A stretch of DNA of 64,000 nucleotides from Chrysophaeum taylorii (lineage: Eukaryota > Sar > Pelagophyceae > Pelagomonadales > Pelagomonadaceae): positions 52,984 through 116,983 of the forward strand of contig JAQMWT010000172.1 of the NCBI GenBank assembly GCA_029834535.1. Reading direction: 5' to 3'. Position 1 is the stretch's first letter. Each line of letters starts with the position of its first letter. Shown piece after piece: positions 35,714 through 59,928 of the stretch. The notes under the pieces are model-generated. The model was not told where the DNA came from, did no database searches, and saw only the letters and a program-made list of their open reading frames with translations. Made by a program: the position numbers and the translations under genes.

Positions 35714-38700
35714 ATGGGGGCTGACGACGATACCTATACTGACGACGACCGGCCCCCGCAATCGGTGGTCCCTCTGGACATCCAGGCCGTCGTGATGGTA
35801 CTGGGGCTCGGGCTCGTCGCGGGCGTCGTGGTCGTCGGGTGCTGCCTCTCGCGAGGACGACTCGAGCACCTTGATCCGTGCGGATCGCGAAGAAACGCGA
35901 AGAATCATCGGCGGAAGCGCCGCGGCGCGGGGCTCGGGTCGCCGAACCCCATCCTCCTGTTTCCCCCGAGATTTTTCTCGATGGGGCAGCCGTCCTTGAT
36001 GGTCTGGAAGGTGCTGACCGAGCGACGGCGCGACGCGAAAGGCGCCGCGACGTTTTTCCTGCTTCCGACGACCGTCCTCTTGGCCGTCTGGCTGCTGTAC
36101 GCGTGCTTCAGCAGCAAAAAATCGAGCGGCGAGATCGAACAGTTTTTGACTGTGCTGTCTTTGGTGTTTGTGACGCAGTCGACCTGCGCGAACGTGGTGC
36201 ACGAGAAAGCTTCGAAACTGAGAGAATCTCTGAGGCAAATGGGTCTCCGCGCCGCGCCTTACTGGTGGTCGATTTTTGTCGTCGACGGTCTGCTTTTCGG
36301 CACCCTGCTGTCGGTCCTGGTCGCATCGGTCGCCGCGCCGCTCCGTCTCTTCCACAACGCGGGCTCGGGCTACGGCGACGGCGACGTGTACGCGTGGCCG
36401 ACGCTCTTTGGGTTGGCGTGGTGCTACTGCGCCGCGTCGACGGCCGTCGGGGTTTTTTTGTCCACGCTCTGCGGCTCGACCTCGACGGCCTCGCTTTCGT
36501 CGTTTGCGGTGACGATCGTCGCGATTACCACCTTCGTCGTCCTCAAGATGTCGGCCCCGAAGGCTCTGGAGGAAGGTCGAATCGGCTTTTTCCTTTGTCC
36601 GCCGCTCGCGCTCACCCTCGCCGTCGCCGGCATGAGCTCGACCTTTGCGCGGTACCCCATGACTCTCCGCATTGGTGCAGCGACCGTTTCGCGGTGGCTC
36701 CTGGTGGACGCGCTTTTGTACGCGGCCTTGGCGGCGTACTTGGCGCGCGTCCTCCCCACCGAGGACTTTGGCCGACGCGACCCGTGGTGGTTTCCCGCCG
36801 CGTGTTTGCTCGAGAAAAGGACGAAAAAATGTGGAGGACAGCAAGATCCTCCTCCTCCTCCTCCTCTCACGAGCGAGAACGCCACGGCGCCGCTGATGGA
36901 CGAGGAGGCGCCGCCGCCGCCATCAGGCGGGGGCCCGACCGTGTCTATCCGGAACCTCCGCAAGTCGTTCGGGAAACACGTGGCGCTCGACGACGTGTCG
37001 CTGGACCTCGAGGAGAACGAGACGGTCGCGCTGCTGGGCCACAACGGCGCGGGAAAGAGCACGCTCCTCAACCTGTTGACGGGGCTCGTGCCCGCCGACG
37101 CCGGGACGGCCGCCGTTTACGGCGGACGCGATAGGGGGGTCCTCGGGGTATGCCCGCAGCACGACGTCCTTTTCGAGCGGCTGACGACGCGCGAGCACGT
37201 CGCGCTGTGCGCGGCTATAAAGAGCGGTCGCGTCGACCCCACCAACGCCGAGGGCGACGAGCTCCTGAGGACCTTTGGGCTCGCGCACCGCGAGGACCAC
37301 CTCGGCCGCGAGTTGTCGGGCGGCATGCGCCGCAAGCTCTCGACGGCGTGCGCTTTGGTCGGCGGCTCCAAGTTCGTCATCCTCGACGAGCCGACGACGG
37401 GCTTGGACGCGCTCGCCCGCCGCGAGCTCTGGGATCTCCTAGCCAAAATCAAGCGCGGTCGCACGGTCCTGCTGACGACCCACTACATGGACGAGGCCGA
37501 CGCGCTGGGCGATCAGATCGCCATCCTGCGCCACGGCAAGATCGCGTGTCACGCGCCGCCGGAGGACCTCAAGCGCGACCTCGGCGCCGACGCCTACAAG
37601 CTCACTTGCGATCTTCATCCTGCCCCCGGGGATGACGCGATGAGCGGGCACTCCTCGGACGACGACAACATCGAGCTCACCGTCTGCAGCAGCAGCAAGC
37701 CTTTGGACGACGACGACGACGACGAGGAGGACGAGCTGTCGCGCGTCGTGGCTGCCCGCGTCCCGGGGGCAAAGTTGTGGCACGACGGGCGCATCGACCC
37801 GACGAGGCGCGTCTACGCGCTGCCCGCCGACCGCCCGACGGAGATCGGAGGTTTGGTCGCCGAACTCGAGCGCGACGCCAAGGAGGGCGGTCCGCGCTTC
37901 GGCGTAGCCGCGGTCGGCATCGGGCCCTCGGACCTCGAGGACGCCTTCGTCAGCCTCGGCGGCGATTCCCGCTCGCCACAACAAGAACAACAAGAACAAC
38001 AAGAACAAGAAGATCATTTGGAGGAGGAGAAGGAGGAACCCGCGTACAAGGTCCACCACGAAGACGGCGGGTCGTTGTGGGCGAGCTTCTCGACGCGGGT
38101 GCGCGCCCTGTGCCGGAAACGGCTTTTGACGGCGCGACGCGACCTCAAGACGATCCCCTTGTTGCTGATCCCCGTGGCCGCGGCCGTCGCCGCGCTCGTG
38201 CTGAACGCCGAGGACGAGTTTGGGAAGCGCGGCACGTCGACGGCCAACGTCGCCACGGCCGTGATCGTGATGCTGGCGTTTATTCCCGCGGCCGGACTCG
38301 TCGCCGAGCACGTTGTCGCCGAGCGTTCGAGCAAGCTGCGAGACGTCCTGACGGTCGCGGGCTGCGACGCGAAGTGCTATGTTTTTGGCACTTTTGTCGG
38401 GGACGCCGCGCTTTTTTCGGCGGTGGTGCTGGCCGTCGCGGTAATAGCCGCCGCGACGGGCTCGGCCGTCGCGACCTACCGGAAAACCACCCCGTACAAA
38501 TTTCCCCGGGATCTCGCCGACGCCCCCGATTCGATGGTCGAAGAGGTGGCCTCGCAGGTTTTGCATTCGGTGTGGGTCGACGATCGGTGGGAGAACGACG
38601 ACTGGATCCCCGACCGCGTCCCCCAATGGATCCTCGACCTCACCGACGACGCGGTGAAGGCGGCCGAGGCGAAGTTGAACGTGACCGACGACGACTGGAG

Positions 38701-40684
38701 GACCTACGAATACGAGGAAATAGAACGCGGAATTCGAAAGTGGGCAGCACCGGGCCTCTGGCTGTGCCTCCCGCTCTTCGGGATCGAGCTCCTCTTTTTC
38801 TCGTACGCGGCGAGTCACTTATTTTCGGGTCCGCGCGAGGCCGTCGTCCTGCTGCCGATGGCCGCGCTCGGCCTCCTCTTCGTGCCGTTGATCCTCGTCT
38901 CCCTCGTGAATCTGACCGTCGGCAAAGACGGCATCGGCATCGTCCGCGTCTCGAAGTCGACGTTCTTGGGCGTCTTGTTCTGGGGCCTCGCCCTCTGCTC
39001 GCCGCACGGAGCCCTCGTCGTCGCGCTCTGCCACCTCACGACCAGCCTCGACCGCCGCTTCGCCGACGACGCTCCCCCCTTCGAGGCGACTTGCGCGATC
39101 GCCGCGATCGAGGCGCTCTTATACGCGACGATATCCTACGTCCTCGACCGTCGCGCGGCCGGAACGAAAATCCCTAGAATTATGTTGGCTCCCCCTTGGG
39201 GTAGTACCGACGAGGACGAGGACGTGACGCGAGAGCGCGAACGCGTCGAGGCGTCGTTTTCGACGGCGGCGAAGAAGAAGAAAGATCGCGGCCTCATCGT
39301 CGCGGGCTTGCGCAAGGTCTACCGCGCGACAAAAACAAAATCAAACGTCGTCGCCGTCGACAATCTCAGCTTCTCGGTAGCACCGGGCGAAATTTTCGGA
39401 CTCCTGGGCGCGAACGGCGCCGGCAAGTCGTCGGCCGTATCGTGCGTCGTGCGGGCGACCTATCCGAGCGCCGGCGATGCCCTCGTCTGCTCGCGCTCGA
39501 TCCTCGACGATTTCGAAGAAGCGGCTCGCCACCTCGGCGTCGTCGCCCAGACAGACACCATCTACGACGGACTCACCTGCGGCGAGCACTGCGCTCTCTT
39601 CGCGTCGATCCGCGGCGTCCGAGACGCCGGGCTCGCCGCGACCGTCGACGCGGCCCTTTCCGAGCTCGGCCTCGATACCCCCCTCGTCAGATCCAAGCTG
39701 GCAAAACACCTCTCGGGAGGACAAAAGCGGAAGCTCTGCTCGGCGATGGCCATCATCGGCGATCCGCGCGTCGTTCTTCTCGACGAACCATCGGCCGGCC
39801 TCGACCCCCTCTCGCGCCGCGCTCTCTGGACTGCCCTCCGACGCGCGACGAAAAATCGCGCCGTCGTCCTCACCTCCCACTCGATGGAGGAGTCGGAGGC
39901 CCTCTGCACGCGCGTCGCCATCCTCGTCGCCGGACGCGCCCGCGCGATCGGAACTTCCACCCGCCTCAAGCGAAAATTCGTCTCCGAGTACCGCCTCTCG
40001 CTGCGCCTCTCGAACGACGACTCGAAGAACCCCGCACTCGCCGCCGACCAACTCGTCGCCCTCCTCCCCGCGGCGACCCCCCGCCCCTCGACCAAAGCTC
40101 GGACCCTCGACTTTACCCTCCGCTGCGACGACGTCGACGTCGGACTCCTCTTCTCTACTCTCCGAGACGCCGCGACCGACTTACCCATCCACTCCTACAC
40201 CCTGTCGCAGCCGACCCTCGAACAGGTCTTTCTCGCGGTCGTCCGCCAAGCCCGCCAAGAAGACGAGGAGGAGGACGATCATGACGCTACTAGCCGCCGA
40301 GACGATCGCGCGTCGACGACGACTCCTCGGCGGCGGCGTCGTCCTGACGCCGCGGCCATCCTCGAGGCCAAGCGCTGCTGCGGCCTCGACCACAAGAGCC
40401 ACCGCTTCGTCTCCTTGGCCGCCTCTCTCGTCGCGCTCCTCACCTTCCTCCCCCTCACCGGCCTCCTCGGCGAGAGCCCGAGCTACGACGACGACCGCCG
40501 CCCTTACGACGACGACGACCGCCGCCAAACTGGCTGCCACCACGACCCCGGCCACCAGCCGCCCTGCTCGACCTCGGCCGTCACCCTTTCCTCCTTTCCC
40601 TTTCTCCTCGCCGTCCTCGTCGCCGCCGTCGCCTGTTGCGGTTGCTGCTGCTTCCTCAAGCCGCCACCCCGCTCTACCACCTAG
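35714..40684 (+). CDS. Full-length ABCA-type lipid transporter
   Basis: 1656 residues, ATG at 35714. Two half-transporters. The first TM domain starts after a basic region with RNPILLF-like sequence at residues 80-95, then about six helices (FFLLPTTVLLAVWLLYACF, FLTVLSLVFVTQSTCA, WWSIFVVDGLLFGTLLSVLVA and others). NBD1 has Walker A LLGHNGAGKSTLLNLL, signature ELSGGMRRKLSTA and Walker B FVILDEPTTGLD, with the ABCA-typical TTHYMDEADALGD. The second TM domain begins with the ABCA exporter pattern and a large extracytoplasmic loop with several W and D residues. NBD2 has LLGANGAGKSSAVS, LSGGQKRKLCSAMA and VVLLDEPSAGLDP, with TSHSMEESEAL. Regulatory C-terminal domain, then an extra TM-like tail rich in Asp/Arg/Cys (40260-40680). 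ABCA proteins move phospholipids or sterols. The tail is unusual. Confidence 0.92.
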   Translation: MGADDDTYTDDDRPPQSVVPLDIQAVVMVLGLGLVAGVVVVGCCLSRGRLEHLDPCGSRRNAKNHRRKRRGAGLGSPNPILLFPPRFFSMGQPSLMVWKVLTERRRDAKGAATFFLLPTTVLLAVWLLYACFSSKKSSGEIEQFLTVLSLVFVTQSTCANVVHEKASKLRESLRQMGLRAAPYWWSIFVVDGLLFGTLLSVLVASVAAPLRLFHNAGSGYGDGDVYAWPTLFGLAWCYCAASTAVGVFLSTLCGSTSTASLSSFAVTIVAITTFVVLKMSAPKALEEGRIGFFLCPPLALTLAVAGMSSTFARYPMTLRIGAATVSRWLLVDALLYAALAAYLARVLPTEDFGRRDPWWFPAACLLEKRTKKCGGQQDPPPPPPLTSENATAPLMDEEAPPPPSGGGPTVSIRNLRKSFGKHVALDDVSLDLEENETVALLGHNGAGKSTLLNLLTGLVPADAGTAAVYGGRDRGVLGVCPQHDVLFERLTTREHVALCAAIKSGRVDPTNAEGDELLRTFGLAHREDHLGRELSGGMRRKLSTACALVGGSKFVILDEPTTGLDALARRELWDLLAKIKRGRTVLLTTHYMDEADALGDQIAILRHGKIACHAPPEDLKRDLGADAYKLTCDLHPAPGDDAMSGHSSDDDNIELTVCSSSKPLDDDDDDEEDELSRVVAARVPGAKLWHDGRIDPTRRVYALPADRPTEIGGLVAELERDAKEGGPRFGVAAVGIGPSDLEDAFVSLGGDSRSPQQEQQEQQEQEDHLEEEKEEPAYKVHHEDGGSLWASFSTRVRALCRKRLLTARRDLKTIPLLLIPVAAAVAALVLNAEDEFGKRGTSTANVATAVIVMLAFIPAAGLVAEHVVAERSSKLRDVLTVAGCDAKCYVFGTFVGDAALFSAVVLAVAVIAAATGSAVATYRKTTPYKFPRDLADAPDSMVEEVASQVLHSVWVDDRWENDDWIPDRVPQWILDLTDDAVKAAEAKLNVTDDDWRTYEYEEIERGIRKWAAPGLWLCLPLFGIELLFFSYAASHLFSGPREAVVLLPMAALGLLFVPLILVSLVNLTVGKDGIGIVRVSKSTFLGVLFWGLALCSPHGALVVALCHLTTSLDRRFADDAPPFEATCAIAAIEALLYATISYVLDRRAAGTKIPRIMLAPPWGSTDEDEDVTRERERVEASFSTAAKKKKDRGLIVAGLRKVYRATKTKSNVVAVDNLSFSVAPGEIFGLLGANGAGKSSAVSCVVRATYPSAGDALVCSRSILDDFEEAARHLGVVAQTDTIYDGLTCGEHCALFASIRGVRDAGLAATVDAALSELGLDTPLVRSKLAKHLSGGQKRKLCSAMAIIGDPRVVLLDEPSAGLDPLSRRALWTALRRATKNRAVVLTSHSMEESEALCTRVAILVAGRARAIGTSTRLKRKFVSEYRLSLRLSNDDSKNPALAADQLVALLPAATPRPSTKARTLDFTLRCDDVDVGLLFSTLRDAATDLPIHSYTLSQPTLEQVFLAVVRQARQEDEEEDDHDATSRRDDRASTTTPRRRRRPDAAAILEAKRCCGLDHKSHRFVSLAASLVALLTFLPLTGLLGESPSYDDDRRPYDDDDRRQTGCHHDPGHQPPCSTSAVTLSSFPFLLAVLVAAVACCGCCCFLKPPPRSTT

Positions 40685-44639: not shown

Positions 44640-45449
44640 ATGATGATAAGCGCGTCGCTGGTATTTGGGAGCCTGCGGCTGTCGCCGTCCCAGATCGAGC
44701 GGTACGACGCGTGGAGCTTCGTCGCGCAGCTGCGACCGATTTTAAGAGGGCACGTCGTGGTCGCTCCGCAGCGCAGCGTGCGGCGACTGGGCGAGCTGAC
44801 AGACCAGGAGTTGGACGCGTTGTTTGCGATGGTGCGGAACGTCCAGGCGGCGTCGATCGCGCGCGACGCGTCGGTGACGGCCTTCAACGTGGCGATCAAG
44901 GACGGTCCGGAAGCCGGGCAGCCGGTGCCGCACGCGCACGTCCACGTCGTGCCGCGGAGGCCGAACGACGTTCGTCGGAACGACGACGTTTACGGCATGC
45001 TCGACGCGTGGTCCCCAGACGAAAGCGTGGTGGTACCCCCCACGGCGCCTCTGGAGGTCCCCGACGACGATTCCAGAGAACCCCGCACGCCCGAAACGAT
45101 GGCCGACGAGGCGCGCCTTTACGGCGCGGCCTCCGGAAGAAAGACCGTTAGTTTCGGCCGTTTCGAAGTCGACGGCCGCCAGGTCTTCTACGAGTCGCCG
45201 AAATCTCTCGCCATCGTAAACCTCAAGCCGATCGTTCCGGGGCACGTCCTCGTCATCCCGAAACGGGTTGCCCCGACCCTCGCCGACCTCGACGACCTAG
45301 AGTACGTCGACCTCTGGCGTTCGGCGCGGGACGTCGCGAAAGTGGTTCTCGATTATTACGGCAAGGACGACGCCAACTTGGCGGTCCAGGATGGCGTCGA
45401 CGCCGGCCAGTCGGTGCCCCACGCCCACGTCCACATCCTTCCCCGCTAG
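44640..45449 (+). CDS. Tandem HIT-domain (FHIT-like) nucleotide hydrolase
   Basis: 269 residues, ATG at 44640. Two complete HIT domains. The first (1-~125) has LVFGSLRLSP, ILRGHVVVAPQRSVRRLGEL, FNVAIKDGPEAGQPVPHAHVHVVPR; the second (~160-269) has VFYESPKSLAIVNLKPIVPG, HVLVIPKR, NLAVQDGVDAGQSVPHAHVH and ILPR. Each keeps the H-x-H-x-H triad with the upstream Gln-Ser/Pro-Val-Pro-His pattern of FHIT, which cleaves diadenosine polyphosphates. Single-domain FHIT is about 150 residues, so this is an internal duplication joined by an acidic linker. Both sites look active. The gene ends 12 bp before the 3' end of the giant convergent gene. Confidence 0.9.
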   Translation: MMISASLVFGSLRLSPSQIERYDAWSFVAQLRPILRGHVVVAPQRSVRRLGELTDQELDALFAMVRNVQAASIARDASVTAFNVAIKDGPEAGQPVPHAHVHVVPRRPNDVRRNDDVYGMLDAWSPDESVVVPPTAPLEVPDDDSREPRTPETMADEARLYGAASGRKTVSFGRFEVDGRQVFYESPKSLAIVNLKPIVPGHVLVIPKRVAPTLADLDDLEYVDLWRSARDVAKVVLDYYGKDDANLAVQDGVDAGQSVPHAHVHILPR

Positions 45450-45461
45450 AGAAAATTAAAA

Positions 45462-47130
45462 TTAGCGTCGCCGCCCGAGGAGCTTGAGATTGCAGGCTCG
45501 GACGAGGAGCCGCGCGCGTTCGAGGGTCGCGTAGACGACGCCGATGATGAGGACCGCGAGCCCCAGGATGAAGACGGTGATGACGACGTTCTCGGCGCGC
45601 CGTAGGGAGTGGGACGCGAACGCGCGGACCGGCCCGGGCAAGAGGTGAGCCGACAACGTTGGAACGATGCCGATGAACTCCTCGAAGATAATCTCCTGGA
45701 GTTCGTCCGGCAGCGATAGGAAGAGCCCGACGACGAGCAGGAGAATCCGCGTGTCGATGGTCGGATACCATCGCGCGTCGCTCGCGATGTCGGGAAGCGC
45801 CTCGACGACCCGCTTGATATCGTCGGTTTTTTCGGGCGTAGCGTACAGCTGCTGGGCTGCGCGCGTGCGGGCGAGATCGGGTTCGAGCTCGAGCAGCAGG
45901 GTCGCGGCCGACGGGGTCTGCGCCTTGAAGGGAAACCGGCGCCGGGCCCTCGGGTGGTCCACGTCGAGGCGGTCGATCACGAGTCTCGGGAGCCAGACGG
46001 CGAAGAAGAAGAGCTCGCAGGGCATCGCGATGAAGTATATTAACACGAAGGAAATAGCGCACGAGAGGAGCCAAGCCCGGCTCTTCGCGTGTCCCCAGAT
46101 AGCCGCCGACGCGATCAAATAGTAGCACATGAATCCCGCGAGGATAAGGACCAGCGTCCACGCCGTCGCGAACCCCAACGCGCCCGGCGGCGCGTCGGGG
46201 GCTTCGAGGTCGCTCTCTACTCGGGACCGACACGCGTTCAACACTTTCCGCTCGAGAAGACTCATCCGAGACACGTGCTCCACCGACGCGATCGTCTTGC
46301 TCGCTTCCTCCATAAAAGCTTCGTCGTCCCCGGCGTGCTTCTCGCGCAGCGCGCTTATCTCGACGCGCCACGCGACCGCCTCCTCTGCCTGTTCCCTCAA
46401 AACGCTCGCCACGTTCTCCTCGAACAACTCGCGGTCCTCGACCCACTGCCATCGCCTCAGGATGTCGTCGGATAGCTCGCGCAACAACGCGACTTGAACC
46501 TGCCGCGCGTCCTCGTCTTCGCGCCGGCGACGGCGGCCGCCTTCCAGATTGCTCATCAACGTTCGCAGCTCGGAGAGCTGCGCGATCACCAATTCGCACA
46601 CCTGCGGCGCCAACGACGACGATCGCGCGACGACGACCATAGCCTCCTCCGCCGCCACGTCCTCCGACATTCCTACGCTTTTCTTCGTCTCGTCGAGGCA
46701 TAGGTCTGAAATTTTGCGGTAGAGCGAACTCGATCGACCCAAAGCCGCCGCCGCCGCCGCCGCCGCGTACCGGGCTACGCTCGACGGCGCGCGGCCCGCC
46801 ATCGCGAGGATCGTCGATCGGCCGACGGGCTTTTTTTTAACCGGGGTGGTCTCTCCGGCTTGCCGAGGTCCGAACGAAGGAGACGGTTGCTCCGTCGTCG
46901 TTATCATCGTCAATTTATCTTTTCCTTCGATCCGCGTCGACGCGACGAACGTCACGGCGTCGACGTCGGTTATTTGTTCCGAAATGAGATCCTCCACGCG
47001 AATCTCGTCCAAGCTCACAGCATCATCCTCGCTGGCTGGTTCGTCGGAACGAGATGGGGCACCACCACCATTTGGCACAGCTCTGACGAGCCGAGACAGC
47101 GCCTCTGGCAGCGGCGCGACGAGATAGTTC
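45462..47130 (-). CDS. Giant REJ-family receptor gene, last exon: multi-TM C-terminal region
   Basis: Stop at 45462; the block begins after an inferred acceptor (CGCAG) at 47131. About 556 residues. An acidic, low-complexity cytosolic part is followed by a helical region with charged heptads (LLRELSDDILRRWQWVEDRE, MEEASKTIASVEHV). At least four TM helices come next: LGFATAWTLVLILAGFMCYY, LLSCAISFVLIYFIAMPCEL, ILLLVVGLFLSLP and VVITVFILGLAVLIIGVVYA. The first residues (NYLVAPLPEALSRL) continue naturally from PITKLYTYLFE at the end of the previous exon; without splicing the upstream frame would stop. No polycystin channel-pore motif was recognised. The open frame alone starts at 47144, but its first five codons lie in the intron. 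Confidence 0.7.
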
Positions 47131-47212
47131 CTGCGACAACGCAACTTTCATCGACAAACATTGCGACAACAACAACAACAAAGATGTACTAGGACGCCGG
47201 GGTTGTACTCAC
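47131..47212 (-). other. 82-nt GT-AG intron joining two ORFs of the REJ gene
   Basis: Reading on the minus strand the donor is GA|GTGAGTAC and the acceptor TTGTCGCAG|GAAC. Splicing turns a Glu-stop into Glu-Asn and keeps the frame. Confidence 0.75.
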
Positions 47213-50200
47213 TCGAAGAGGTAGGTATACAGCTTGGTTATCGGCAGCGAGACGAGCAAAACGAGAGCGATGATAAAGTAATGCTCTGGCGAAGTGGCCG
47301 CTCCCGTCGACGGCTCGTTAATGCCGCACTCCTGGGCGCAATTATGCCACACGCAGAGCGAATGTCCTCCAGCAAACTGGGACACCTTGAGGGCCTCGCA
47401 GTCTTCCTTGCTCGTCTTGGTGATGCACCCGGGGTGATTCGGGTAAGATATGTTGTATTCGACGCACAGACCAAACGCGAACGTTAGAACGTCGAAACAG
47501 ACGTTCCACGCTCGACAGGACCGCGGCACCGTCTTGGAATAGGTCGAGTACCACGCGCTCAGCGGATGCGCTTGCACAACGGCATTCTTGATGCTTGTCC
47601 ATTTCTGCGATTCACACAGAGTGTCATAATGCGTCGAAACTCTGCGAGTTTGATCTTCTTCTTCTTCCGGCGGCGGCGGCGGCGTCGTCATCGATTGGCG
47701 GCGGCCTCGCTCGTCTTCGCGAGCTCGATCGCGACGATCGAGGACGCAACCGGCGGCAACGAGCAAAAGGCACGCGACCAGGAGGATACCCAAGGCCATG
47801 AACATGTATAAGGCGCGGCCGACGTCTGGCGCGCTATCGAACTGACTCGTGTACGCCGTAGCCATCGCGCTGAGCTTCTGGCCTGTTGCCATCGAAGCTT
47901 GCGCGGTCGAAGGGACGCTGCAGCGACAGGTCGTCACGTTCGATACCGTCGAGATCGCAGTGCACCCAGTCGACCAAGAACCTTCTTGCCAGAAGCGGCA
48001 GTCCGTCGTCGAGGTCGGACACGACACCCAATACGTCCCCGGTAATCCGTCACATTCCTTCACGAGCACAGTTCCATCTGCACACTCGTATGTGACGTTG
48101 CCGTAATATTCGCACGCGCACGTCACGTTCGCGCTTTCTGCCTCGGTCTCGTCCAGAGTGTCGTTGCTGAAAATGTTCAGCTCCACCGATATCGTCGTCG
48201 TCGTCGTCGTCGTCGAGGTATCGAGCCTTCGCCGCCGACGACGACCGTCGGAAGATGACGAGATGCCCCAGCGCACGACGTTCGACGTGACGTTCCCTGA
48301 GACATAGGGATTGACGCCGAGTTCAGCGAACCAGACGTTGTACTCTTCTTCGCTGTCGTCGTCGAGAGCCGCGGGAAGATCGATGCTCGATTCCGACTCT
48401 CGCGGTTGGAGCGACCGGGACGACCCGGTCGTCGAGTTTTGCGACGATACGAGCTGCGCGGCCATCTGGAGGTTGCCGGTCGTGACATAACTGGCGTACT
48501 GCCCCAGAGTTGCATCGCGGAGCTGTCCCGCACCGATGGCATCGAGCGACGAGACCAGAGTGTCGCCCGCGACGGTCGAATTTCCTCCTCCGGCGTCGTC
48601 GTTGTCGTCGTCGGAGCTGAAAAGGTCGGTGTCCAGAAGCGACGACACAGCCGCGCCCAAGTTTGTCGAAGTTGTCGAGGTAGCGCCGATTTCCGAGCCC
48701 ATGAGAGCCATGGTATACGTCAAGTTGTTCAAGGCCAATAGTGCAGTGTCGTAGCTGAGGTGCTCGGGCGCCGCGACGGTCGCCTTTAGGGCAGACGTCA
48801 TTTGCTGCACGATCAACGTGTCTGAATCCATGAGCGCCGTTGCCTGCGTGAGTCCGCTTACGAGCCGGCTGAAGACGGATGCCGATTCCGAGCTGTTCTG
48901 CTTCGTCGCCGACCTCGCGCTGGAGAAGACTACCTGACAAACCGATTCGAGCGAATTCGACGTAAACGCGCTCTCGAGCAGACTCGTCACGGCTGTGAGG
49001 TTCAGTGTTGCCGAGGAGACAGTGACGTTTCGCGAAATACTCGTCTCGCTTCCGAGGTCGTCGTGCGCCGTAACCGTAACAGTTACGTTCGGGTCGCCCG
49101 CTGCCAGATAAACCGACGACACCGAGACGTCAACGTCGGCCGTACGTAGCGTGCTTTCGGACAGCCCAGCAGTGGAATAGAACGAGTACTTCAGCGGCAG
49201 GTAGTCGGCAGACCAACCATCGGTCGTCAATGCGAACTCTGTTTCCAAGTCGACGCCCGCGGCAGGTTTGACCTCCAGGCTCCCCGGCGTCGGAGGGAAT
49301 GCTGCTCGGACTCGGACGACCGAATATCCGACCTCGCCTTCCAGCGTTCGCGCCTCTAACGTGAAGGTATAAGTAGCGCCAGAGACAAGCGCTCCGCTAG
49401 CAAGGACCAAATTGTGGGTCCACACTGCGGAGGTCGACTGCCCGGAGAGAGCGACGGCCGTACTCGCCCAGTTCGCGAGGGTCTCCCCGTTGGTCAGCGA
49501 TCCGCGCGAGACCGACCACGTCGACGTAATCGTCTCCACTCCGGCGAGCGTTGCAGTCCCGTAGAACGTGACATCCTCGCTGTTCACTACAGTCGTACCA
49601 CCACCGCTCGTGGAGATGGCTACCGCGGGAATCCGTTCAGAATTTACGAACCAGAGTGTGGCGGACGTCGTCGACGTCCGACCGTCGGTCGCCGTCACGG
49701 CGAGCATTATTGTCACGTTACTCGCAATGCCAGAGGTCGTCTCGGTGGCATTGAGTGTGATCGTTTCTTTCGCCGGCAAGGACCACGGGCACGCCGTCCC
49801 GCCAGTCGTCGTGGCGCAGTTCCACGAAAAAGACAAGCCAGCAGCGGCGCCCGTGACCGAGTCTTCTACGTCGTTGTCGTAAGAGCTTTCCCCCGAGAGC
49901 TCGATCGACTCGTACGACGATACGGCTCGATCGGCGCCCGTGATCTCGGCCGCGACGTACGATTTTGTGATGTTCAGGACGGTGTACGCGGTGTTGTTTG
50001 CCTCGGTGACCCGATCACTTACGGTAGCGAGAAGAAGATACGTATTGATCTCCAAAGCGTACGACGCAGTCTTGAAGAAACGCGGGTCGTTCGAATTCGA
50101 GACGATCCCTGTCGGGGTGATGCGCTCATCTTTCTCTTCGTAGTACGTCAAATTGTATAGTTGCCATTCGTAGTTGACTCCTCCATTCGAGTCGCCGGTG

Positions 50201-50631
50201 CCGCCGTCGTCGTCGCAAGAGGAAGCGGCTCCGTCTGCCTTGATTGAGATCTCATCAGAACGATGATATTCCTGGTAGACGCCGCCCGCGATAGCAACCG
50301 CGGGGATTTCGTCGTCGAGAATGGTTACGCCGAATGGGTCAGACGTGGAGCTGAACCCCAAGAAGTTTTCGAGAGTCAAGAGGACCTCGAGGGTTGTCGT
50401 AATGTTGACGTTCAGCATTGCTCGAAGCTCGTCTGACGTCGCCTCGAACGTCGACCGGCCGTATTTTCCTGCGTTTGCGCGCGCGAGAACATCGTCGAGC
50501 GCCTCTCGCGCGGGCGGCTCGGAGTTCATCGCCGCCGGAAAGAGTGTAACATTCCAAGAGTAATAGAAAGCTCGCCCACCACTTCCAGACGATAAAGACG
50601 ACGATACGGTCAATCCGTCGCAAGCGCCCAC
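47213..50631 (-). CDS. Giant REJ-family receptor gene, central exon: REJ module, GPS-like region and TM
   Basis: About 1,139 residues. It opens with ACDGLTVSSSLSSGSGGR then FYYSWNVT, the diagnostic start of the REJ (receptor for egg jelly) module of polycystin-1-like proteins. Immunoglobulin/PKD-like beta repeats follow (IELSGESSYDNDVED, LSFSWNC, VTFYGTATLAG). A Cys-rich segment before the membrane (VTCACEYYGNVTYEC, WSTGCTA, NVTTCRCSVPSTAQ) resembles a GPS/GAIN site. A TM helix (MALGILLVACLLLVAAGCVL), a Pro/Glu cytosolic loop with a DRRDRAREDERGRR stretch, and a last helix (YFIIALVLLVSLPITKLY) complete it. Many N-x-S/T sites fit an ectodomain. The block begins at an inferred acceptor TTTAG (50632) and ends at an inferred donor (47212). 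The GTG at 50631 is not a start codon. Confidence 0.75.
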
Positions 50632-50689
50632 CTAAAGCCGACAAATTTTTTATGCGACGCGCCCAAACTCTACTACTAAAAATGCTCAC
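50632..50689 (-). other. 58-nt GT-AG intron before the REJ module
   Basis: Donor ACGACG|GTGAGC, acceptor GGCTTTAG|GTGGGC on the minus strand, phase 0. It joins KLSGSTT to VGACDGLTVSS, restoring the sequence expected just before an REJ module. Confidence 0.7.
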
Positions 50690-50772
50690 CGTCGTAGAAC
50701 CCGAGAGCTTGGCGCTGGGAACGAGCGCAGTGCTCGACGCCTCGACGGCGACTGTCGACGAGTTCGCGTATT
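50690..50772 (-). CDS. 83-nt internal exon of the giant REJ-family gene
   Basis: Encodes about 28 residues (YANSSTVAVEASSTALVPSA then KLSGSTT). It is in the same frame as the PS-repeat ORF but separated from it by an in-frame TAA, so the exon needs the 57-nt intron at 50773-50829 (GTGAGG donor, CGCAG acceptor). Phase fits on both sides: one base carried in, 84 bases total. Too small for a simple ORF scan. Confidence 0.6.
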
Positions 50773-50829
50773 CTGCGCGGAGTTACATTCTACGCGTTGC
50801 AGACAGACGAGGACGCTGACGGGCCTCAC

Positions 50830-53800
50830 GATAGCAATCCCAATATTCGTTCGTACGCTCGGCCTTGACGACCGAGGGAAGAAGAGTCATGTTGCTCTGT
50901 GGTACCACGGTGGTAGCCGTCACATCTGCGTTTATGGAAGCACTGTCGATCCAATAGCAGGATGCTTCATCAACATCAGCGAAGTGAAGCACGAGGTCGC
51001 ATTCGAACGTGTCGCCGGCGGTCAGAGAGGCCTGGTCCGTCGACGCGTCGAAGGAAACCACGACGTTGGCGCCAGTGGCGTCGAACACCGCAGACATCAG
51101 CCGAGGCGCGGCAGGAATTTTGTCATGAGGGCATGCTTCAGCAGCGACTGTTGGGTAACGGGTTGGAATGATTGTCTTCCGCGTTGGCGTCGCGGCGTCG
51201 CTAGTTGGTACCGTAGACGGTGCTGCTGACGTGGTAACCAACGCCGTCGCCTCCTCGAGGGTTGGAAAGCTCTGTGGAGCCGACGATGGTACCGGTAAAG
51301 GCGCGAGTATCGATGGCGTCTGGTGGGTCGGCTGGTCGGGCGCTCTGGTTGATTTTGCGCTTGGGCTTGGAATCGTCGGCATCGATGTCGCGGCGGGAAT
51401 TTTCGATGTCGCAAACGGGGTGGGTTCACTAATTGGAAGCTGCGTAGTAGTAGTATTAAAAACGGATGTGACTGGCGACGGCACGGAAGTTGCCCCAGCT
51501 CCATTTATGGTAGGACGACGCGATGTTGTTGTCAAAAACTGCGTAGGTCCGAACGAAGGACGTACTGTGTTCGGGCAAAGTGAAGGGGACGATGTCAGCG
51601 ACTTTTGTATTGCTAAGCTGACAAGATCGTTCGTGGGCTCTAATGACCGTGTAGCCGGCTGCGTAGGCTCAAAAACTGGCGTGCCCGAACGAAAAATCGT
51701 TGGTTCAAAAGACGGATCGCTTGCAATAAAAGGCACTGGCGCCAGCGACGGCAGATTTGTCGGAACCAACTCGAAGGTCGGCCTCAGGGTCGGATGTGGC
51801 GAGATCGAACTCGGTGCGCCCGAAGGCTGCGCCGACGTAGGCCCTGCCATTGTTGGCAAGGATACCGGGCGGCGGACAGTTGAAGAACCTGATGGTTTTG
51901 CCGTTGGCCTCGTAGGTGCTGAATGTGGTAGCACTGCCTGTGTCGGTGGACGCGACGTCGTGATCGTGGGTTCGAGCGTTGGCTGCTCGGAGAGGAAGTT
52001 ATTTGACGGATGAAGCGACGATGGTGTCAACAAAAATCCGCCACCTTCACTCGTTTCACTCGGTGGAATTGACACCAGAGTGGGCACCGACGTTGGCACG
52101 GATATCCGCGACCACGTCGGCACTAAAGATGGCGTCGTCGACGTAGGCGCGAAAAAAGGGATCAAGTTGGGCCCAGGACTAGGCACGACTGTCGGAGACG
52201 TCGACTGCCTGATCGACGATGACGCTGATGGGCACACACTCGACGGAGCAGCATGAGGCATTCTCGACGGCAGTCTTGAAGGACATGGCAAAGGTTTAGA
52301 CGACGGAATACTCTGTGGAAGACCCGATGGCGCGAGTGTTGATGAGTCGCTGGGAAGTAAACTTGGAAGCTTAGAGGGTAAACGTGATGGCATGGAGGCT
52401 GGCCCACCGACTGGCATTGATGTCGGATGACCGTGCGGGAAGCCCGACGGCGAAATAGGTGGCCCAAGACTCGGATTCCGCGTCGGCATAACAGGTGGGG
52501 ACTTTACTGGCACGGGGCTTGGCCGCGACGTCGGCAAAATCGAGGGGTTAGAGAAAGGTAGCCACGACGGCATGCTCGACGGACATGAAGAAGGTTGTGA
52601 CGATGGAAGCCCCAATGGCGCCAAGCTCGGAAAATGACTCGTGAGCTGAGAGGGAAGCGGTAATGGCTTGAGAGTGCCAGTCGGTACTGAAGTTGGAAGG
52701 ACAGATGGAACAGACGATGGCGCGCTCGACGGGTCGACACTTGGATTCAACGTTGGCATTAGGGTTGGCGCCATCGCTGGCCCGAGACTCGGCGACACTG
52801 ATGGGGTATTCGCAGGGATCAAGGAAGGCACCAATGATGGCGTGCTCGATGGACGCTCCGAAGGTTGAAACGATGGAAGTGCCAGCGGAACACTCGTGGG
52901 AATGTGAGTCGGCACTTTGGTTGGCATAACGATCGGAAGTAGGCTTGGAGGCTCTGTGGGAACTGCAGAAGGCCCAAGAGTCGGCACGTCGTTCGGCTCT
53001 GGTGCCGGAAACGCTGATGGCACATCCGTTGGTACCCCGGTGGGTCCGAGACTGGGATTCGTCGTCGGCAAATTCCAGGGACAAGAAAAAGGCATTAACG
53101 ACAGCATGCTTGACGGAGTTGTCGAAGGTTGCGACGATGGAAGTGTCAGCGGAATACCGGTGGGAATGTGAGTTGGCACTTCCGTGAGTACATCGACCGG
53201 AAGTATACTTGGGAGCTCTGTGGGAACTGCTGATGGCACAAGTGTAGGCGCATCGGTCGGTTCTGATGCTGGAAGCACGGATGGGGCAACCGTTGGGACC
53301 CTGGACGGCCTGAGACTGGGACTCCTTGATGGGGGATTCGAGGGGCTAGAAGAAGTCAACAACGACGGCAAGCTCGACGGACACGCCGTAGGTTGCCAAG
53401 TTGGAAGTGCTAGCGGTGCACTGGTGGGAATGCGAGTTGGCACTTCAGTTGGCACATCAATCGGAAGTAGGCTTGGAAGCTCTGTGGGAACTGCTGATGG
53501 CACAAGTGTAGGCGCATCGGTCGGTTCTGATGCTGGAAGCACGGATGGGGCAACCGTTGGCACCCTGGACGGCTCATGACTGGGTCTTTTCGTCGGAAAA
53601 CTTGAAGGGCAAGAAGAAGGCAACAACGACGGCATGCGTGATGGAGACCTCGAAGGTTGGGACGATGGAAGTGCCAGCGGAACACTGGTAGGAATGTGAC
53701 TTAGCACATCGTTTGGCAGCGGTGATGGAAAAGGTGATGGCCCCAAAGTTGGCGAATCAGTTGGCTCCGAAGATGGAAAGACAGGTGGAAAAGGGGACGG

Positions 53801-56800
53801 CGCGCTTGACGGGCAGCCGCTTGGATTCGTCGTCGGCGCAAGGCTTGGTGAAATTTTTGGCCTGTGGCTGGGTGGCGCCGACGGGGATTTCGAGGGGCAA
53901 GAAGAAGGCAACAATGATGGCGTGCTGGACGGATACGCCGAAGGTTGAAACGATGGAAGTGCTAGCGGAACACTGGTGGGAATGTGAGTTGGCACAAGAG
54001 TCGGCGCATCGATTGGAAGTAGGCTTGGAAGCTCGGTGGGAACTGCTGATGGCACAAGTGTAGGCGCATCGGTCGGTTCTGATGCTGGAATTGCGGATGG
54101 GACAGCCGTTGGCACCCTGGACGGCCCATGACTGGGACTCGCCGACGGGGAATTCGAGGGGCAAGAAGAAGGCAGCAACGACGGCAAGCTTGACGGACAC
54201 GCCGTAGGTTGCCAAGTTGGAAGTGCTAGCGGTGCACTGGTGGGAATGTGACTTGGCACAAGAGTCGGCACATCGATTGGAAGTAGGCTCGGAGGCTCTG
54301 TGGGAACTACTGATGGCACAAGTGTAGGCGCATCGGTCGGTTCTGATGCTGGAAGCACGGATGGGGCAACCGTTGGCACCCTGGACGGCTCACGACTGGG
54401 ACTTTTCGTCGGCAAACTTGAAGGGCAAGAAGAAGGCAACAACGACGGCATGCTTGATGGAGACCTCGAAGGTTGTGACGATGGAAGTGCCAGCGGAACA
54501 CTGGTACGAATGTGACTTGGCACATCGTTTGGCAGCGGTGATGGAAAAGGTGATGGCCCCAAAGTTGGCGAATCGGTTGGCTCCGAAGATGGAAAGACAG
54601 ATGGAAAAAGTGACGGCGCGCTTGACGGGCAGCCGCTTGGATTCGTCGTCGGCGCAAGGCTTGGTGAAATTTTTGGCCTGTGGCTGGGTGGCGCCGACGG
54701 GGATTTCGAGGGGCAAGAAGAAGGCAACAATGATGGCGTGCTGGACGGATACGCCGAAGGTTGAAACGATGGAAGTGCTAGCAGAACACTGGTGGGAATG
54801 TGAGTTGGCACAAGAGTCGGCGCATCGATTGGAAGTAGGCTTGGAAGCTCGGTGGGAACTGCTGATGGCACAAGTGTAGGCGCATCGGTCGGTTCTGATG
54901 CTGGAATTGCGGATGGGACAGCCGTTGGCACCCTGGACGGCCTGAGACTGGGACTCCTTGATGGGGGATTCGAGGGGCTAGAAGAAGTCAACAACGACGG
55001 CAAGCTCGACGGACACGCCGTAGGTTGCCAAGTTGGAAGTGCTAGCGGTGCACTGGTGGGAATGTGACTTGGCACAAGAGTCGGCACATCGATTGGAAGT
55101 AGGCTCGGAGGCTCTGTGGGAACTACTGATGGCACAAGTGTAGGCGCATCGGTCGGTTCTGATGCTGGAAGCACGGATGGGGCAACCGTTGGCACCCTGG
55201 ACGGCTCATGACTGGGTCTTTTCGTCGGAAAACTTGAAGGGCAAGAAGAGGGCAACAACAACGGCATGCTTGATGGAGAGGTCGAAGGTCGTGACGATGG
55301 AAATGCCAGCGGAACACTGGTGGGAATGTGAGTTGGCACAAGAGTCGGCACATCGATTGGAAGTAGGCTTGGATGCTCTGTGGGAACTGCTGATGGCACA
55401 AGTGTAGGCGCATCGGTCGGTTCTGATGCTGGAATCACGGATGGGGCAGCCGATGGCAACACGGATGGCCTGAGACTGGGACTCGCCGACGGGGAATTCG
55501 AGGGGCAAGAAGAAGGCAGCAACGACGGCAAGCTTGACGGACACGCCGTAGGTTGCCAAGTTGGAAGTGCTAGCGGTGCAGTGGTGGGAATGTGACTTGG
55601 CACAAGAGTCGGCACATCGATTGGAAGTAGGCTCGGAGGCTCTGTGGGAACTACTGATGGCACAAGTGTAGGCGCATCGGTCGGTTCTGATGCTGGAAGC
55701 ACGGATGGGGCAGCCGATGGCAACACGGACGGCCCGAGGCTGGGACTTTTCGTCGGCAAACTTGAAGGGCAAGAAGAAGGCAACAACGACGGCATGCTTG
55801 ATGGAGACCTCGAAGGTTGTGACGATGGAAGTGCCAGCGGAACACTGGTAGGAATGTGACTTGGCACATCGTTTGGCAGCGGTGATGGAAAAGGTGATGG
55901 CCCCAAAGTTGGCGAATCGGTTGGCTCCGAAGATGGAAAGACAGATGGAAAAAGTGACGGCGCGCTTGACGGGCAGCCGCTTGGATTCGTCGTCGGCGCA
56001 AGGCTTGGTGAAATTTTTGGCCTGTGACTGGGTGGCGCCGACGGGGATTTCGAGGGGCAAGAAGAAGGCAGCAATGATGGCGTGCTGGACGGATACGCCG
56101 AAGGTTGAAACGATGGAAGTGCTAGCGGAACACTGGTGGGAATGTGAGTTGGCACAAGAGTCGGCACATCGATTGGAAGTAGGCTTGGAAGCTCGGTGGG
56201 AACTGCTGATGGCGCAAGTGTAGGCGCATCGGTCGGTTCTGATGCTGGAATTGCGGATGGGACAGCTGTTGGCACCCTGGACGGCCCATGACTGGGACTC
56301 GCCGACGGGGAATTCGAGGGGCAAGAAGAAGGCAGCAACGACGGCAAGCTTGACGGACACGCCGTAGGTTGCCAAGTTGGAAGTGCTAGCGGTGCACTGG
56401 TGGGAATGCGCGTTGGCACTTGGGTTGGCATATCGATCGGAAGTAGGCTCGGATTCTCTGTGGGAACTGCTGATGGCTCAAGAGTCGGCGCATCGGTTGG
56501 CTCTGATGCTGGAATTACGGACGGGACAGCCGTCGGCACTCCGGACGGCCCGAGACTTGGACTCGACGACGGCGAACTCGAGGGAAAAGAAGAAGGCAGC
56601 GACGACGGCACGATTGATGGACACGCCGTAGGTTGCGAAGTTGGTAGTCCCAGCGGAATACTGGTAGGAATGCGAGTTGGCATAAGCGAGGGAAGAGGTG
56701 ATGGTCGGAAGGTTGGCGCAACGGTCGGTTCTGGTGTCGGAAGCGCGGAGGGGCTCGACGAAGGCACAAATGACGGCGTGCTCGATGGCGAGCCCACCGG

Positions 56801-57012
56801 AACACCGGAGGGGATGCTACTCGGCGAATTGCTCGGATCAAGGGTCGGTAGAAAGCTCGGGATCCGCGTGGGAGCAGGCGTTGGCAGCGGACTCGGGGCA
56901 CCGGTTCCCAACGTTGGGAGCGCGGATGGTGCAGCCGACGGCGCATTGGAAGAAGAAGAAGAAGAAGAAGAAACTGGCCTAGGAGTCGGACTGGCTATTA
57001 TAACCCTGCGCG
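50830..57012 (-). CDS. Giant REJ-family receptor gene: PS/PT-repeat stalk exon and pre-REJ domain
   Basis: About 2,050 residues; the frame is open from 57274 to a TAA at 50783. The N-terminal part upstream of ~57012 contains hydrophobic, AT-rich sequence and is probably intron, so the exon start is approximate (acceptor candidates at about 56970 and 57012). Nearly all of the rest is a Pro-Ser/Pro-Thr stalk in which P is followed by S or T every third to fifth residue (e.g. PTELPSLLPIDVPTLVP, SVPLALPSFQPSAYPS), including 88-residue (264-bp) near-identical tandem repeats. The last ~105 residues before the exon end are a beta-sandwich with paired cysteines (FDATGANVVVSFDASTDQAS, FECDLVLHFADVDEASCYW). 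This domain normally precedes REJ in stramenopile proteins of this kind. The stalk is likely extracellular, rigid and O-glycosylated. Confidence 0.7.
53080..56900. repeat. 264-bp coding tandem repeat array (three-unit higher-order pattern)
   Basis: Within the stalk exon, units of 264 bp (88 codons), some slightly different in length, follow in tandem. Three types are visible by their opening words: A (APLALPTWQPTACPS), B (VPLALPSFQPSAYPS with KISPSLAPTTNPSGCPS) and C (VPLALPSSQPSRSPS). They often recur in A-B-C order, giving a ~0.8 kb super-repeat. Copies are nearly identical at DNA level, so recent unequal exchange and assembly collapse are both possible. Confidence 0.85.
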
Positions 57013-57207
57013 AGTGCATTGTTAAAAGGGAAGCGTCAAAAGTGAGATGAACAGACACCGGAATCGCGCGAGCCGTCGTCATAATAATAAAAATCGTCGT
57101 CGTAAAAATAATAATAAAAATCGTCGTCGTAAAAGTAAAAAAAAGGGAAGTAGAAGTCATCGTCGAAAAAAACTGTTTTTGTCGTAGGTCAAGAACACGC
57201 ATTCCAG

Positions 57208-57942
57208 TCAAAAACAAGACGCGGGTTGAGTACAGGACGAGGACGATGCCGAGAAGCCGGAGGGCGCGGAACACGCGAGGAATTCATAGTCATCGTAGGT
57301 GCGGCCGTCGGCAGTAACGAGGTCGTCCGGCGAGTTGTCGGAAATCGAGGAGCAGTCGAGGACAAGGCTGCTGTCGTCGTCGACGACGAAACCGCCACCA
57401 AATTCGGTGGCGGTGTTCGCCGCGACGAGCGAACCGTTGCGTAGGTAGCCCTCGGACCCAGCCTCGAGGTAGACTGCTGCTCCGTAGGCCGCGATGTTTT
57501 GCGCGAGCGTCGAGTCGTAGGCCTCGAAGACTCCATCGTAGACGTACGCGAACCCTCCCGCCGAGGCGGCGACGTTGCGCACGGCCTCGACGTTGACGAG
57601 GACGAGCGTCGCTCTGACGACGCGGATAGCGCCGCCGTTCGACGCGTTCTTTGGTGCGAAGCCGGAAATAGTCATGTCGACGAGCCTCACGGTTGCGGCG
57701 TTCTCGATTGAGAAAAGCCGGTGCGTCGCGCCCGACATTGTCCGTCCGTAGCCATCTAAGGTGAGCGATGTCGAGAGCGTGATGGAGGCATTGGAGGAGA
57801 TGTTGGAGGCCAAGCCGATCGCGCTGCTGCCGCGGCCGATCGCCGCCTCCAGCGCCTCGAACGACGAGACGAACGTCTCGGCGCGCGCGGCACCGCCCAC
57901 CACCCACATCAACCACGAGCCCAAGAGGCGGCCCGCCGTCAT
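57208..57942 (-). CDS. Right-handed beta-helix protein, likely first exon of the giant REJ-family gene
   Basis: ATG at 57942 with a good signal peptide (MTAGRLLGSWLMWVVGGAAR, cleavage near ARA-ETF). About 210 residues of parallel beta-helix follow: SSAIGLASNISSNASITLST, LTLDGYGRTMSGA, FSIENAATVRLVDMTISGFA, NGGAIRVVRATLVLVNVEAV, AYGAAVYLEAGSEGYLRNGS and EFGGGFVVDDDSSLVLDCSS, a pectin-lyase-like/POMP repeat pattern. The frame closes at 57208 just after EFLACSAPSGFSASSSS, overlapping the 5' end of the PS ORF in another frame. That ORF has no signal peptide of its own, so I infer that an intron of about 200-260 nt joins them. The exact junction is not resolved; donor candidates lie near 57225-57290. 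If not joined, this is a secreted 244-residue beta-helix protein. Confidence 0.6.
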   Translation of the reverse strand: MTAGRLLGSWLMWVVGGAARAETFVSSFEALEAAIGRGSSAIGLASNISSNASITLSTSLTLDGYGRTMSGATHRLFSIENAATVRLVDMTISGFAPKNASNGGAIRVVRATLVLVNVEAVRNVAASAGGFAYVYDGVFEAYDSTLAQNIAAYGAAVYLEAGSEGYLRNGSLVAANTATEFGGGFVVDDDSSLVLDCSSISDNSPDDLVTADGRTYDDYEFLACSAPSGFSASSSSCTQPASCF

Positions 57943-58362: not shown

Positions 58363-59928
58363 CTAGCGGGAGGGCGGGATTTGCCAGAGGCCGGGTTTGA
58401 CGGGGTCGTGGAGGAGGTGGCGGTTCTCGGGGAGCGTGCCCTTGAGAAAGTCGCGCTGGTCGGCGAGGCAGAGGGGGTCGATGCGGCCGTAGTCGTGGTT
58501 GCCGTAGGAGGCCTTGGCGTTGGAGCAGTCGACGCTCTGGACGCCGAGCTGGCCGGCGGTGACGCAGCCGTTGCCGGGCGCGGGGTAGTCGAGACCCCGA
58601 CGCTGTCTCGCGAGTTCGACGGGCTCGTCGTTGGGGTTGAAGTAGTGGAGGAAGCGGACGTCGTGGGCCGAGGTGCGGGCGATCGCCTGCTGGAAGAACC
58701 AGGTAGGCGTGTCGGGGGCGTCCAAGACGACGCGCTGCGCGACGCGAGACGCGTTATTCTCCTGGAGGACGGCGTCGAGGGCGGCGAGGACGAGATAACA
58801 GCCCATCGAGTGGGCCTTCCAGTGGAGGTGTGTCTGGCGCGGGAGGGCGTCGCGAACGAGTTTCGCGGTCGCGGCCAGGACGGGGACGGACCGTTGCAGC
58901 ATCTGCTCAGCGGCCGTGTAGTTTCGCTCGGCTACCGAGAGGACGGCCGAGATGGCCCAGGTTTTGGGAAGCGGGGGGTTCGAGGGCCAGGCGAAGCAGA
59001 CGACCGTCGGGCGGTCGAAGGCCCGCGAATACAAGGCGGCGGAGCGCGCGGCGAACTGCAAGTTGGTGTTGAAGCCGTGGACGTAGACGAGGCAGTCGCC
59101 GTCGAGGCTCGCCGCGTGCGACAGTTTGTGGAGCGCCCGGTCGCGCGCGAGGGGTTCCCAGGAGACGAAGCGGAATTTCTGGATGTCCCCGATCAAGGGA
59201 CCGCGAAAGCCCTCGTCGATCGCGATCGTCGCTATCCCCCACGTCGTCGAATCGTCCAAAGTTGGAGAAAATCGCGCGAGGCCTTCTTCGTCGACAATTG
59301 GTTTGCGGTTGGTCGCGACGATCACCTGCTGCAACCAGGTCTCGGAGTACTCGGGAGCCGCCCGCGGGGTCACGAGACTGGGCGGCACGTAGTGCGCCGC
59401 GTCGCACAGGTGAACGTACGCCGGAAACTGATCCCGTCGCGCCGACCGTCCGAGCTGGGACAACACCACGTCCAGGGATGCGGGCGGCGGGGGCTGGAGC
59501 GCGACGTGCCGTCGCCGGGCTACCGCCACCACGGCGAGACCCGCGGTCCCGCCGTCGTCGGCGATCGCCGACTCGTCGTTCACCCGGCTCACGGTCAAGA
59601 CCGGGTGCTCGTGCTGCTTCCAGCTCTCGATCGACACCTCGATCGCTCCGGGCTGGGTGGCCACCACTTCCACGCACGGCTGCCTGCGCCGGATCGGTTC
59701 CACCGACCGCAGCGACGGCCCGCGAAACACCGACCGCTCGATCGCTGACTCCTGCGACACGACCTCGTCCCGCACCGCCCGCGCCTGCGGCGTCAGTACC
59801 TTCGACGACGACGGAGTCCCGCTCAGCAACGACGACAGCACATCCCCGCGGACATCCCTCGTCGTCGTGCTGATGCCGCTCGTGTTCGACGCGCGCGCCG
59901 GGACCCGCGGCTTGGGTAGAGGAAGCAT
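58363..59928 (-). CDS. Alpha/beta hydrolase of the DUF900 type
   Basis: 521 residues, ATG at 59928. The N-terminal ~150 residues are Ser/Arg/Val-rich without a recognised domain. Residues ~240-450 form an alpha/beta hydrolase: FVSWEPLARD, CLVYVHGFNTNLQFAARSAA (the DUF900 HGFN-x-F/L signature), FDRPTVVCFAWPSNPPLP, HLHWKAHSMGCYLVLAALDA with the nucleophile Ser in AHSMG, and VVLDAPDTPTWFF with a likely acid residue. A His for the triad may be in YGNHDYGRIDPL near the C-terminus. DUF900 proteins are presumed esterases or lipases of unknown substrate. No TM segment or signal seen. Confidence 0.82.
   Translation of the reverse strand: MLPLPKPRVPARASNTSGISTTTRDVRGDVLSSLLSGTPSSSKVLTPQARAVRDEVVSQESAIERSVFRGPSLRSVEPIRRRQPCVEVVATQPGAIEVSIESWKQHEHPVLTVSRVNDESAIADDGGTAGLAVVAVARRRHVALQPPPPASLDVVLSQLGRSARRDQFPAYVHLCDAAHYVPPSLVTPRAAPEYSETWLQQVIVATNRKPIVDEEGLARFSPTLDDSTTWGIATIAIDEGFRGPLIGDIQKFRFVSWEPLARDRALHKLSHAASLDGDCLVYVHGFNTNLQFAARSAALYSRAFDRPTVVCFAWPSNPPLPKTWAISAVLSVAERNYTAAEQMLQRSVPVLAATAKLVRDALPRQTHLHWKAHSMGCYLVLAALDAVLQENNASRVAQRVVLDAPDTPTWFFQQAIARTSAHDVRFLHYFNPNDEPVELARQRRGLDYPAPGNGCVTAGQLGVQSVDCSNAKASYGNHDYGRIDPLCLADQRDFLKGTLPENRHLLHDPVKPGLWQIPPSR

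Follow-up and report, generated by a model that had tools for sequence, protein, structure and literature searches.

The window analysed here is a stretch of 64,000 nucleotides on contig C172 (JAQMWT010000172.1) of the pelagophyte Chrysophaeum taylorii, and its minus strand at 45462..57942 most likely carries, as read from the sequence, a gene for a giant cell-surface receptor with a binding-type head, a very long stalk and a REJ-type membrane base. The open reading frames (ORFs) lie on the minus strand as the initial annotation had described them: a head ORF (57208-57942), a stalk ORF (50783-57283), a small exon within 50339-50782, a REJ exon (47209-50631) and a transmembrane (TM) exon (45462-47147). 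The predicted coding span, 45462-57942, gives a giant product as had been proposed, but of 4,007 residues with the head-stalk intron that we prefer, rather than ~4,100. The order originally read for its parts was recovered, namely head, Pro/Ser stalk, conserved module, REJ, GPS-like motif and multiple TM segments, and a comparable order occurs without splicing in a paralogous locus (C186).

Three short GT-AG introns on the minus strand connect the frames from the stalk onwards: intron A (50773..50829, 57 nt), intron B (50632..50689, 58 nt) and intron C (47131..47212, 82 nt), with a short exon (50690..50772) defined by splicing and paralogue alignment between A and B. Their removal leaves a single open frame from the stalk ORF through to the stop at 45462. 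We compared the spliced protein with the open frames of nine paralogous loci, which read across the junctions: the alignments crossed junction A in nine of nine loci, B in nine of nine and C in seven of nine, the remaining two (C330 and C40a) giving no alignment at that point. At junction A the comparison with C65 paired 'CSCY|QYANSSTV' with 'WDCY|QYANSSTV'; some alignments had gaps near the junctions, the largest, of at least 14 residues, lying before junction C in C523. Because the paralogues are open at these positions without any splicing, introns A to C and a single frame from the stalk to the last TM segment are well supported by sequence comparison. The initial proposal of one joint gene therefore holds for this portion, but its head-stalk junction, with a weak donor, is a matter of interpretation to which we return below.

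The Pro/Ser/Thr stalk (51143..56932, minus strand) matched PF04886 (PT, E 2.1e-44) and consists of 25% Pro and 20% Ser, with a proline every 4 residues and, on a larger scale, repeats offset by 88, 272 and 448 residues. Its Pro-Ser character agrees with the initial annotation, and its length is 1,930 residues against the ~1,950 claimed. It is followed by the start of a conserved post-stalk module (50830..51142, minus strand), earlier labelled a beta-sandwich, which aligned in all nine paralogous loci compared, and then by a REJ domain (48967..50178, minus strand; exon residues 152-555). The latter matched PF02010 at E 2e-39 with 135.9 bits, far above the curated cut-off of 25, and at E 4.6e-40 in a genome-wide search, which bears out the REJ module; a search of the PDB with the REJ exon returned nothing at E 1. 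REJ and GPS modules have been studied mainly in animals, in connection with fertilisation and kidney disease. Profiles for the REJ, GPS/GAIN and beta-helix modules named at the outset thus gave a match for the first, but PF01825 (GPS), GAIN and Beta_helix gave none in the window exons scanned.

Directly before the first TM segment is a GPS-like cysteine motif, CRFWQEGSWSTGC...CRC (47920..48000, minus strand), whose end reads CRFWQEGSWSTGC...CRCSVPSTAQ. A pattern search found C..W..C..CxC before TM1 in the window gene and nine paralogous loci; the motif was also seen by eye in C178, where the Trp after the first Cys is missing, and with a looser pattern in L037, and none was made out in L003, L005 and L007, all short stretches. 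In a canonical GPS, HL[ST] after CxC constitutes the autoproteolysis triad. It was absent from all 12 genes with the motif (window plus 11 paralogous loci), and self-cleavage at this module is hence unlikely, as judged from the missing triad. The GPS-like motif that had been annotated accordingly stands as a Cys pattern, but without HL[ST] or a match to Pfam GPS. Genome-wide, Pfam GPS gave five places at E 1 or better, two of them above the cut-off; four of the five (C40, C330 and two on C524, but not that on C14) sit about 1.1-1.3 kb downstream of a REJ place, and these four include two above the cut-off. Separately, a DYST-like motif (DYST, DYGT, DISS or DFAS) occurs roughly 8-12 residues past CxC in L012, L015, L020, L023, L026, L027 and L006, near the canonical HL[ST] site; neither the window gene nor C65 showed one.

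The membrane part was delimited by hydropathy averaged over seven aligned members, with the threshold lowered to 1.25. The first three segments, TM2 and TM3 being separated by a Cys-rich loop, occupy 47224..47808, and a 324-residue loop followed by TM4 to TM7 and a basic C-terminus occupies 45465..47130 (both minus strand). Averaged values were 2.55 for TM1, 1.67 for TM2, 2.31 for TM3, 2.27 for TM4, 2.18 for TM5 and 2.78 for TM7, with a weak TM6 (1.3-1.4, three overlapping peaks). Seven hydrophobic regions, the sixth of them weak, hence replace the about six TM helices first suggested. Five cysteines in the TM2-TM3 loop are invariant in all seven aligned members, and there are five K/R in the 15 residues after TM1 and seven in the 21-residue tail, which fits a cytosolic location of both; the hydropathy, the Cys-rich loop and the basic tail together suggest an N-out, C-in topology. 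A single-sequence structure model of the C-terminal TM part (45465-46637) had a mean predicted local distance difference test score (pLDDT) of 46.

At the opposite end, a probable signal peptide, MTAGRLLGSWLMWVVGGAARA (57877..57942, minus strand), was read by eye from the sequence. It precedes a head (57234..57876, minus strand) that appears to be a right-handed beta-helix through its match to a protein encoded on contig C188. When compared with the genome, the window head matched C188:34495-34848 (E 1.7e-5, 27% identity over about 120 residues) and, second, C267 (E 8.6e-5). The C188 protein matched PF13229 Beta_helix (3.4e-10) and Chlam_PMP (1.4e-10), both above cut-off; that of C267 passed no relevant cut-off (Chlam_PMP, 18.6 bits vs 20.6). 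The window head shares with C188 a 'DN.PDD' at the end of the helix, and the C188 beta-helix (C188:34111-35199) continues in frame into a Pro/Ser stretch, an arrangement like that proposed for the window gene, but on a contig without a REJ or TM-module match in the genome profile search. A PDB search with the window head gave two hits only, at E 1 and 1.2. The head is therefore likely to be a beta-helix, though by this indirect, sequence-based route.

The gene belongs to a family. In the genome searched (70.8 Mb, 697 contigs), REJ was detected at 45 places that merged into 42 loci, the window's included, one of which (C2) has internal stops, and the TM exon gave 41 matches, itself included. 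A TM module lies up to 8 kb downstream on the same strand in 37 of the 42 REJ loci, and in 19 of the 42 the two occur in an open frame of equal length. Upstream, a match to FG-GAP_2, GT8 or LamG3 is present within 17 kb on the same strand in at least 16 of the 42 loci, taking the best 150 of 213 candidate FG-GAP matches, against roughly 0.5 expected by chance (head ORFs counted by hand as 34, 30 and 40, the last 41 on recount); the other 26 loci, among them that of the window, fall outside this head assignment. Head match and REJ share an open frame of equal length in at least six of the 42, with FG-GAP in C65, C492, C315 and C524 and GT8 in C186 and C479; C65 and C186 were read, and the other four were assigned from equal frame lengths and coordinates. 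Pfam identified the heads as FG-GAP_2 in C65, LamG3 in C667 and GT8 in C186 and C594, and found no head family in the parts of C178, C40b and C523 that were scanned, a scan that left out C40a and C330. The cleanest case is C186, where a GT8 head, a Pro/Ser stalk and REJ share a 4,193-codon frame with most of the TM module; the final TM segment lies outside the frame. By these sequence matches, the window gene is one member of a REJ receptor family of about forty genes with a shared base and several other heads, and not the singular, striking architecture that it had first seemed.

Some further features of the family were observed. Four REJ loci are grouped at C349:57970-142384, all of them preceded by an FG-GAP match some 8-11 kb upstream, and five at C322:400453-487497; both clusters probably reflect local expansion of the receptor family. 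In the GT8 heads (L027 and L028, which correspond to C186, and L025, which corresponds to C594), a simple search for hydrophobic-DxD found one LDLD in C186 and nothing in C594, where it covered ORF residues 1-1,400, so these heads may resemble lectins rather than act as enzymes. On C106, C293 and C44, contigs without a REJ match, LamG3 is repeated in long tandem arrays whose frames reach 7,082 codons.

The base of the window gene is of a known kind, and the beta-helix-like head, the giant stalk and a family with differing heads appear to be new. It would work like adhesion G protein-coupled receptors in having a large modular ectodomain, a GPS-type module and seven hydrophobic segments with the N-terminus out, but differs from them in lacking the cleavage triad and in the 324-residue loop between segments 3 and 4; neither the window gene nor the ORFs of the paralogous loci scanned matched the 7tm_2 or GAIN profiles. 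With SpREJ, PKDREJ and polycystin-1 it has in common an extracellular REJ and, adjoining it ahead of TM1, a GPS-type module. Proteins of that type have 11 TM segments, in contrast to the seven of the window gene, which also has no match to PLAT, PKD channel or C-type lectin and no HL[ST]. The closest published relative found, likened here by its published description, is Esi0130_0068 of the brown alga Ectocarpus, which is expressed specifically in male gametes and has REJ, GPS and 6 or 7 TM helices, with positively selected sites within and beside REJ (PMC4700764). Both are algal and place an extracellular REJ and then GPS ahead of 6-7 TM segments, the module of the window gene being GPS-like rather than a Pfam GPS. 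As described in the same source, Esi0130_0068 has 1,427 residues, no lectin domain upstream of REJ, a polycystin-channel match inside the REJ region and a GPS match at E 3.78e-05, in contrast to the window product, with its 4,007 residues, beta-helix-like head, 1,930-residue stalk and no polycystin-channel or Pfam GPS match. Five polycystin/REJ-like proteins of Ectocarpus, moreover, are reported to be expressed in males only (PMC3879662). No literature was found that pairs REJ with a beta helix, an algal pectin lyase or a pelagophyte genome, in a search with most subscription journals and all of bioRxiv outside its range; REJ and FG-GAP turned up together there in work on ice-binding proteins, and PMC3652789 names the receptor for egg jelly in its reference list only.

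Altogether, we consider it probable that the locus is a single gene for a giant recognition or adhesion receptor, from a lineage-expanded family with a constant REJ-to-7TM base and with heads and stalk lengths that vary. The signal peptide would direct the protein to the cell surface, where the beta-helix-like head would offer a probable carbohydrate- or matrix-binding surface, held up to several hundred nanometres out by the probably glycosylated Pro/Ser stalk. Force or ligand occupancy would then be passed by the post-stalk module to REJ, on to the uncleaved GPS-like Cys module beside TM1 and from there to the seven-segment bundle with its large loop between segments 3 and 4. Across the family the REJ-to-7TM base would be kept, and the heads (FG-GAP propeller, GT8, LamG or beta-helix) and the stalk length would vary. 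Such a receptor would most likely serve in recognition or adhesion, whether cell-cell or cell-surface. Recognition of gametes would be among these roles and is the best-founded use by analogy with Ectocarpus; recognition of prey, surfaces or self may be other uses. More tentatively, and with somewhat less than even confidence, the family could be a combinatorial repertoire of some forty receptors, in which a constant REJ-uncleaved GPS-like-7TM base bears stalks whose length changes through internal repeats and heads exchanged among unrelated folds (propeller, lectin-like, glycosyltransferase-like, beta-helix), for the recognition of mating type, species, or prey and surfaces. If so, GPS-type modules would signal without cleavage.

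A number of observations weigh against this interpretation. Several concern the head, for which the beta-helix first annotated is upheld in the related C188 protein, but not in the window head itself: it had no Pfam Beta_helix match at E 1 or better, and its hits to PF05354 (Pfam, 0.076) and NF008256 (NCBIfam, 0.18) are at chance level, NCBIfam giving none for two other exons of the gene. A self-repeat in the head, tried as evidence for a beta-helix, was rejected, as, out of 1,000 shuffles, 16% scored as high by identity and 9% by residue classes, and a single-sequence structure model of the head had a mean pLDDT of 33. Neither was a beta-helix head found at other REJ loci, the two other places matched by the window head both being off REJ contigs; with C188 as the query, two of 21 genome matches were on REJ-bearing contigs (C9 and C330), more than 30 kb from the REJ place. 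As to the base, five of the 42 REJ loci had no TM-module match, including C479 with its GT8 head, the TM-module profile found no relative in the PDB (best E 0.58; no polycystin), and acidic residues outnumber basic ones in the TM3-TM4 loop (56 D+E, 41 K+R), so that loop charge backs the topology only in part. The Ectocarpus link concerns brown-algal gametes. Lastly, at the head-stalk border no GTGAG-type donor was found among the several weak candidates enumerated, and the stalk ORF has a Met of its own at 57160, followed by a hydrophobic stretch able to pass as a signal peptide.

The same very long, mucin-like stalk would also suit a structural cell-coat or adhesive protein whose head anchors the cell to the matrix and whose TM bundle is an anchor only, and a GPS cleavage triad missing from all members in which the motif was seen, together with heads that differ between members, would be in keeping with this. 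A simple anchor, however, would not call for a conserved bundle of seven segments that has invariant residues and a 324-residue loop, and we find this explanation doubtful.

The head-stalk border bears on whether there is one gene or two. The head ORF ends at a stop at 57208, in a frame different from that of the stalk, and the length of a joining intron must equal 2 modulo 3 to maintain the frame. We infer a fourth intron at 56974..57233 (minus strand; 260 nt, 42% GC, weak donor), with boundaries that are uncertain: in a simple splice score it reached 5.3, compared with 6.3 for four other candidates, and was ranked first solely because of the low-GC stretch and the continuity of a serine run, splicing at 57233-56974 giving '...SGFSASSSS|FSSSSSSSSNAPSAAPSALPT'. 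In 60-base steps, GC is 0.28-0.50 across this intron vs about 0.6 in the head. Alternatively, a small secreted beta-helix-like protein (57208-57942) could be followed by a separate, headless stalk-REJ-7TM receptor starting at Met 57160, as the hydrophobic stretch after that Met, encoded in T-rich DNA within the stalk ORF, and the lack of a strong donor where the head ORF ends would allow. Yet only 47 nt separate the head stop from Met 57160, scant space for both a terminator and a promoter (the gap from the head ATG back to where the nearest upstream ORF ends, by contrast, is about 420 nt), and the T-rich stretch, with GC down to 0.28, is intron-like. Moreover, head match and REJ share an open frame in the at least six loci noted above, and in C667 PT repeats already begin within the LamG head exon, which two short introns (donors GTGAGC and GTATGT, read by eye) connect to a long stalk frame, so that introns at the head-stalk border do occur in this receptor family. 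Two genes are hence unlikely, and a single gene, with head and stalk joined by the fourth intron, is the reading we keep.

A true PKD1/PKDREJ member, that is, a polycystin-type receptor or channel with PLAT and a PKD cation channel, is very improbable: REJ and a GPS-like module before the first TM segment follow the PKD1-family fashion (compare SpREJ and human PKD in PMC4700764), but neither PLAT nor PKD_channel was matched by the window gene or the ORFs scanned at seven paralogous loci, the TM-module profile met no polycystin in the PDB and the nine PF08016 matches of the genome are on other contigs. PKD_channel (PF08016) matches were located on C392, C362, C552, C390, C317, C345 and C578, and polycystin-type channels probably exist in C. 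taylorii separately from the REJ receptors.

Around the receptor gene, the plus strand carries at 44640-45462 a gene with two HIT-domain stretches, which ends 12 nt before the receptor stop codon, and the 3' ends of the two therefore converge or overlap. Upstream of the receptor and on the same strand is a DUF900 alpha/beta hydrolase (58363-59928), and a 1,656-residue ABC-transporter ORF lies at 35714-40681 on the plus strand. Elsewhere in the genome, at least 84 light-harvesting PF00504 matches mark the alga as photosynthetic; a red-plastid lineage is suggested by the one that was compared with the PDB, which had LHCI, FCPI and VCPI as its closest chains.

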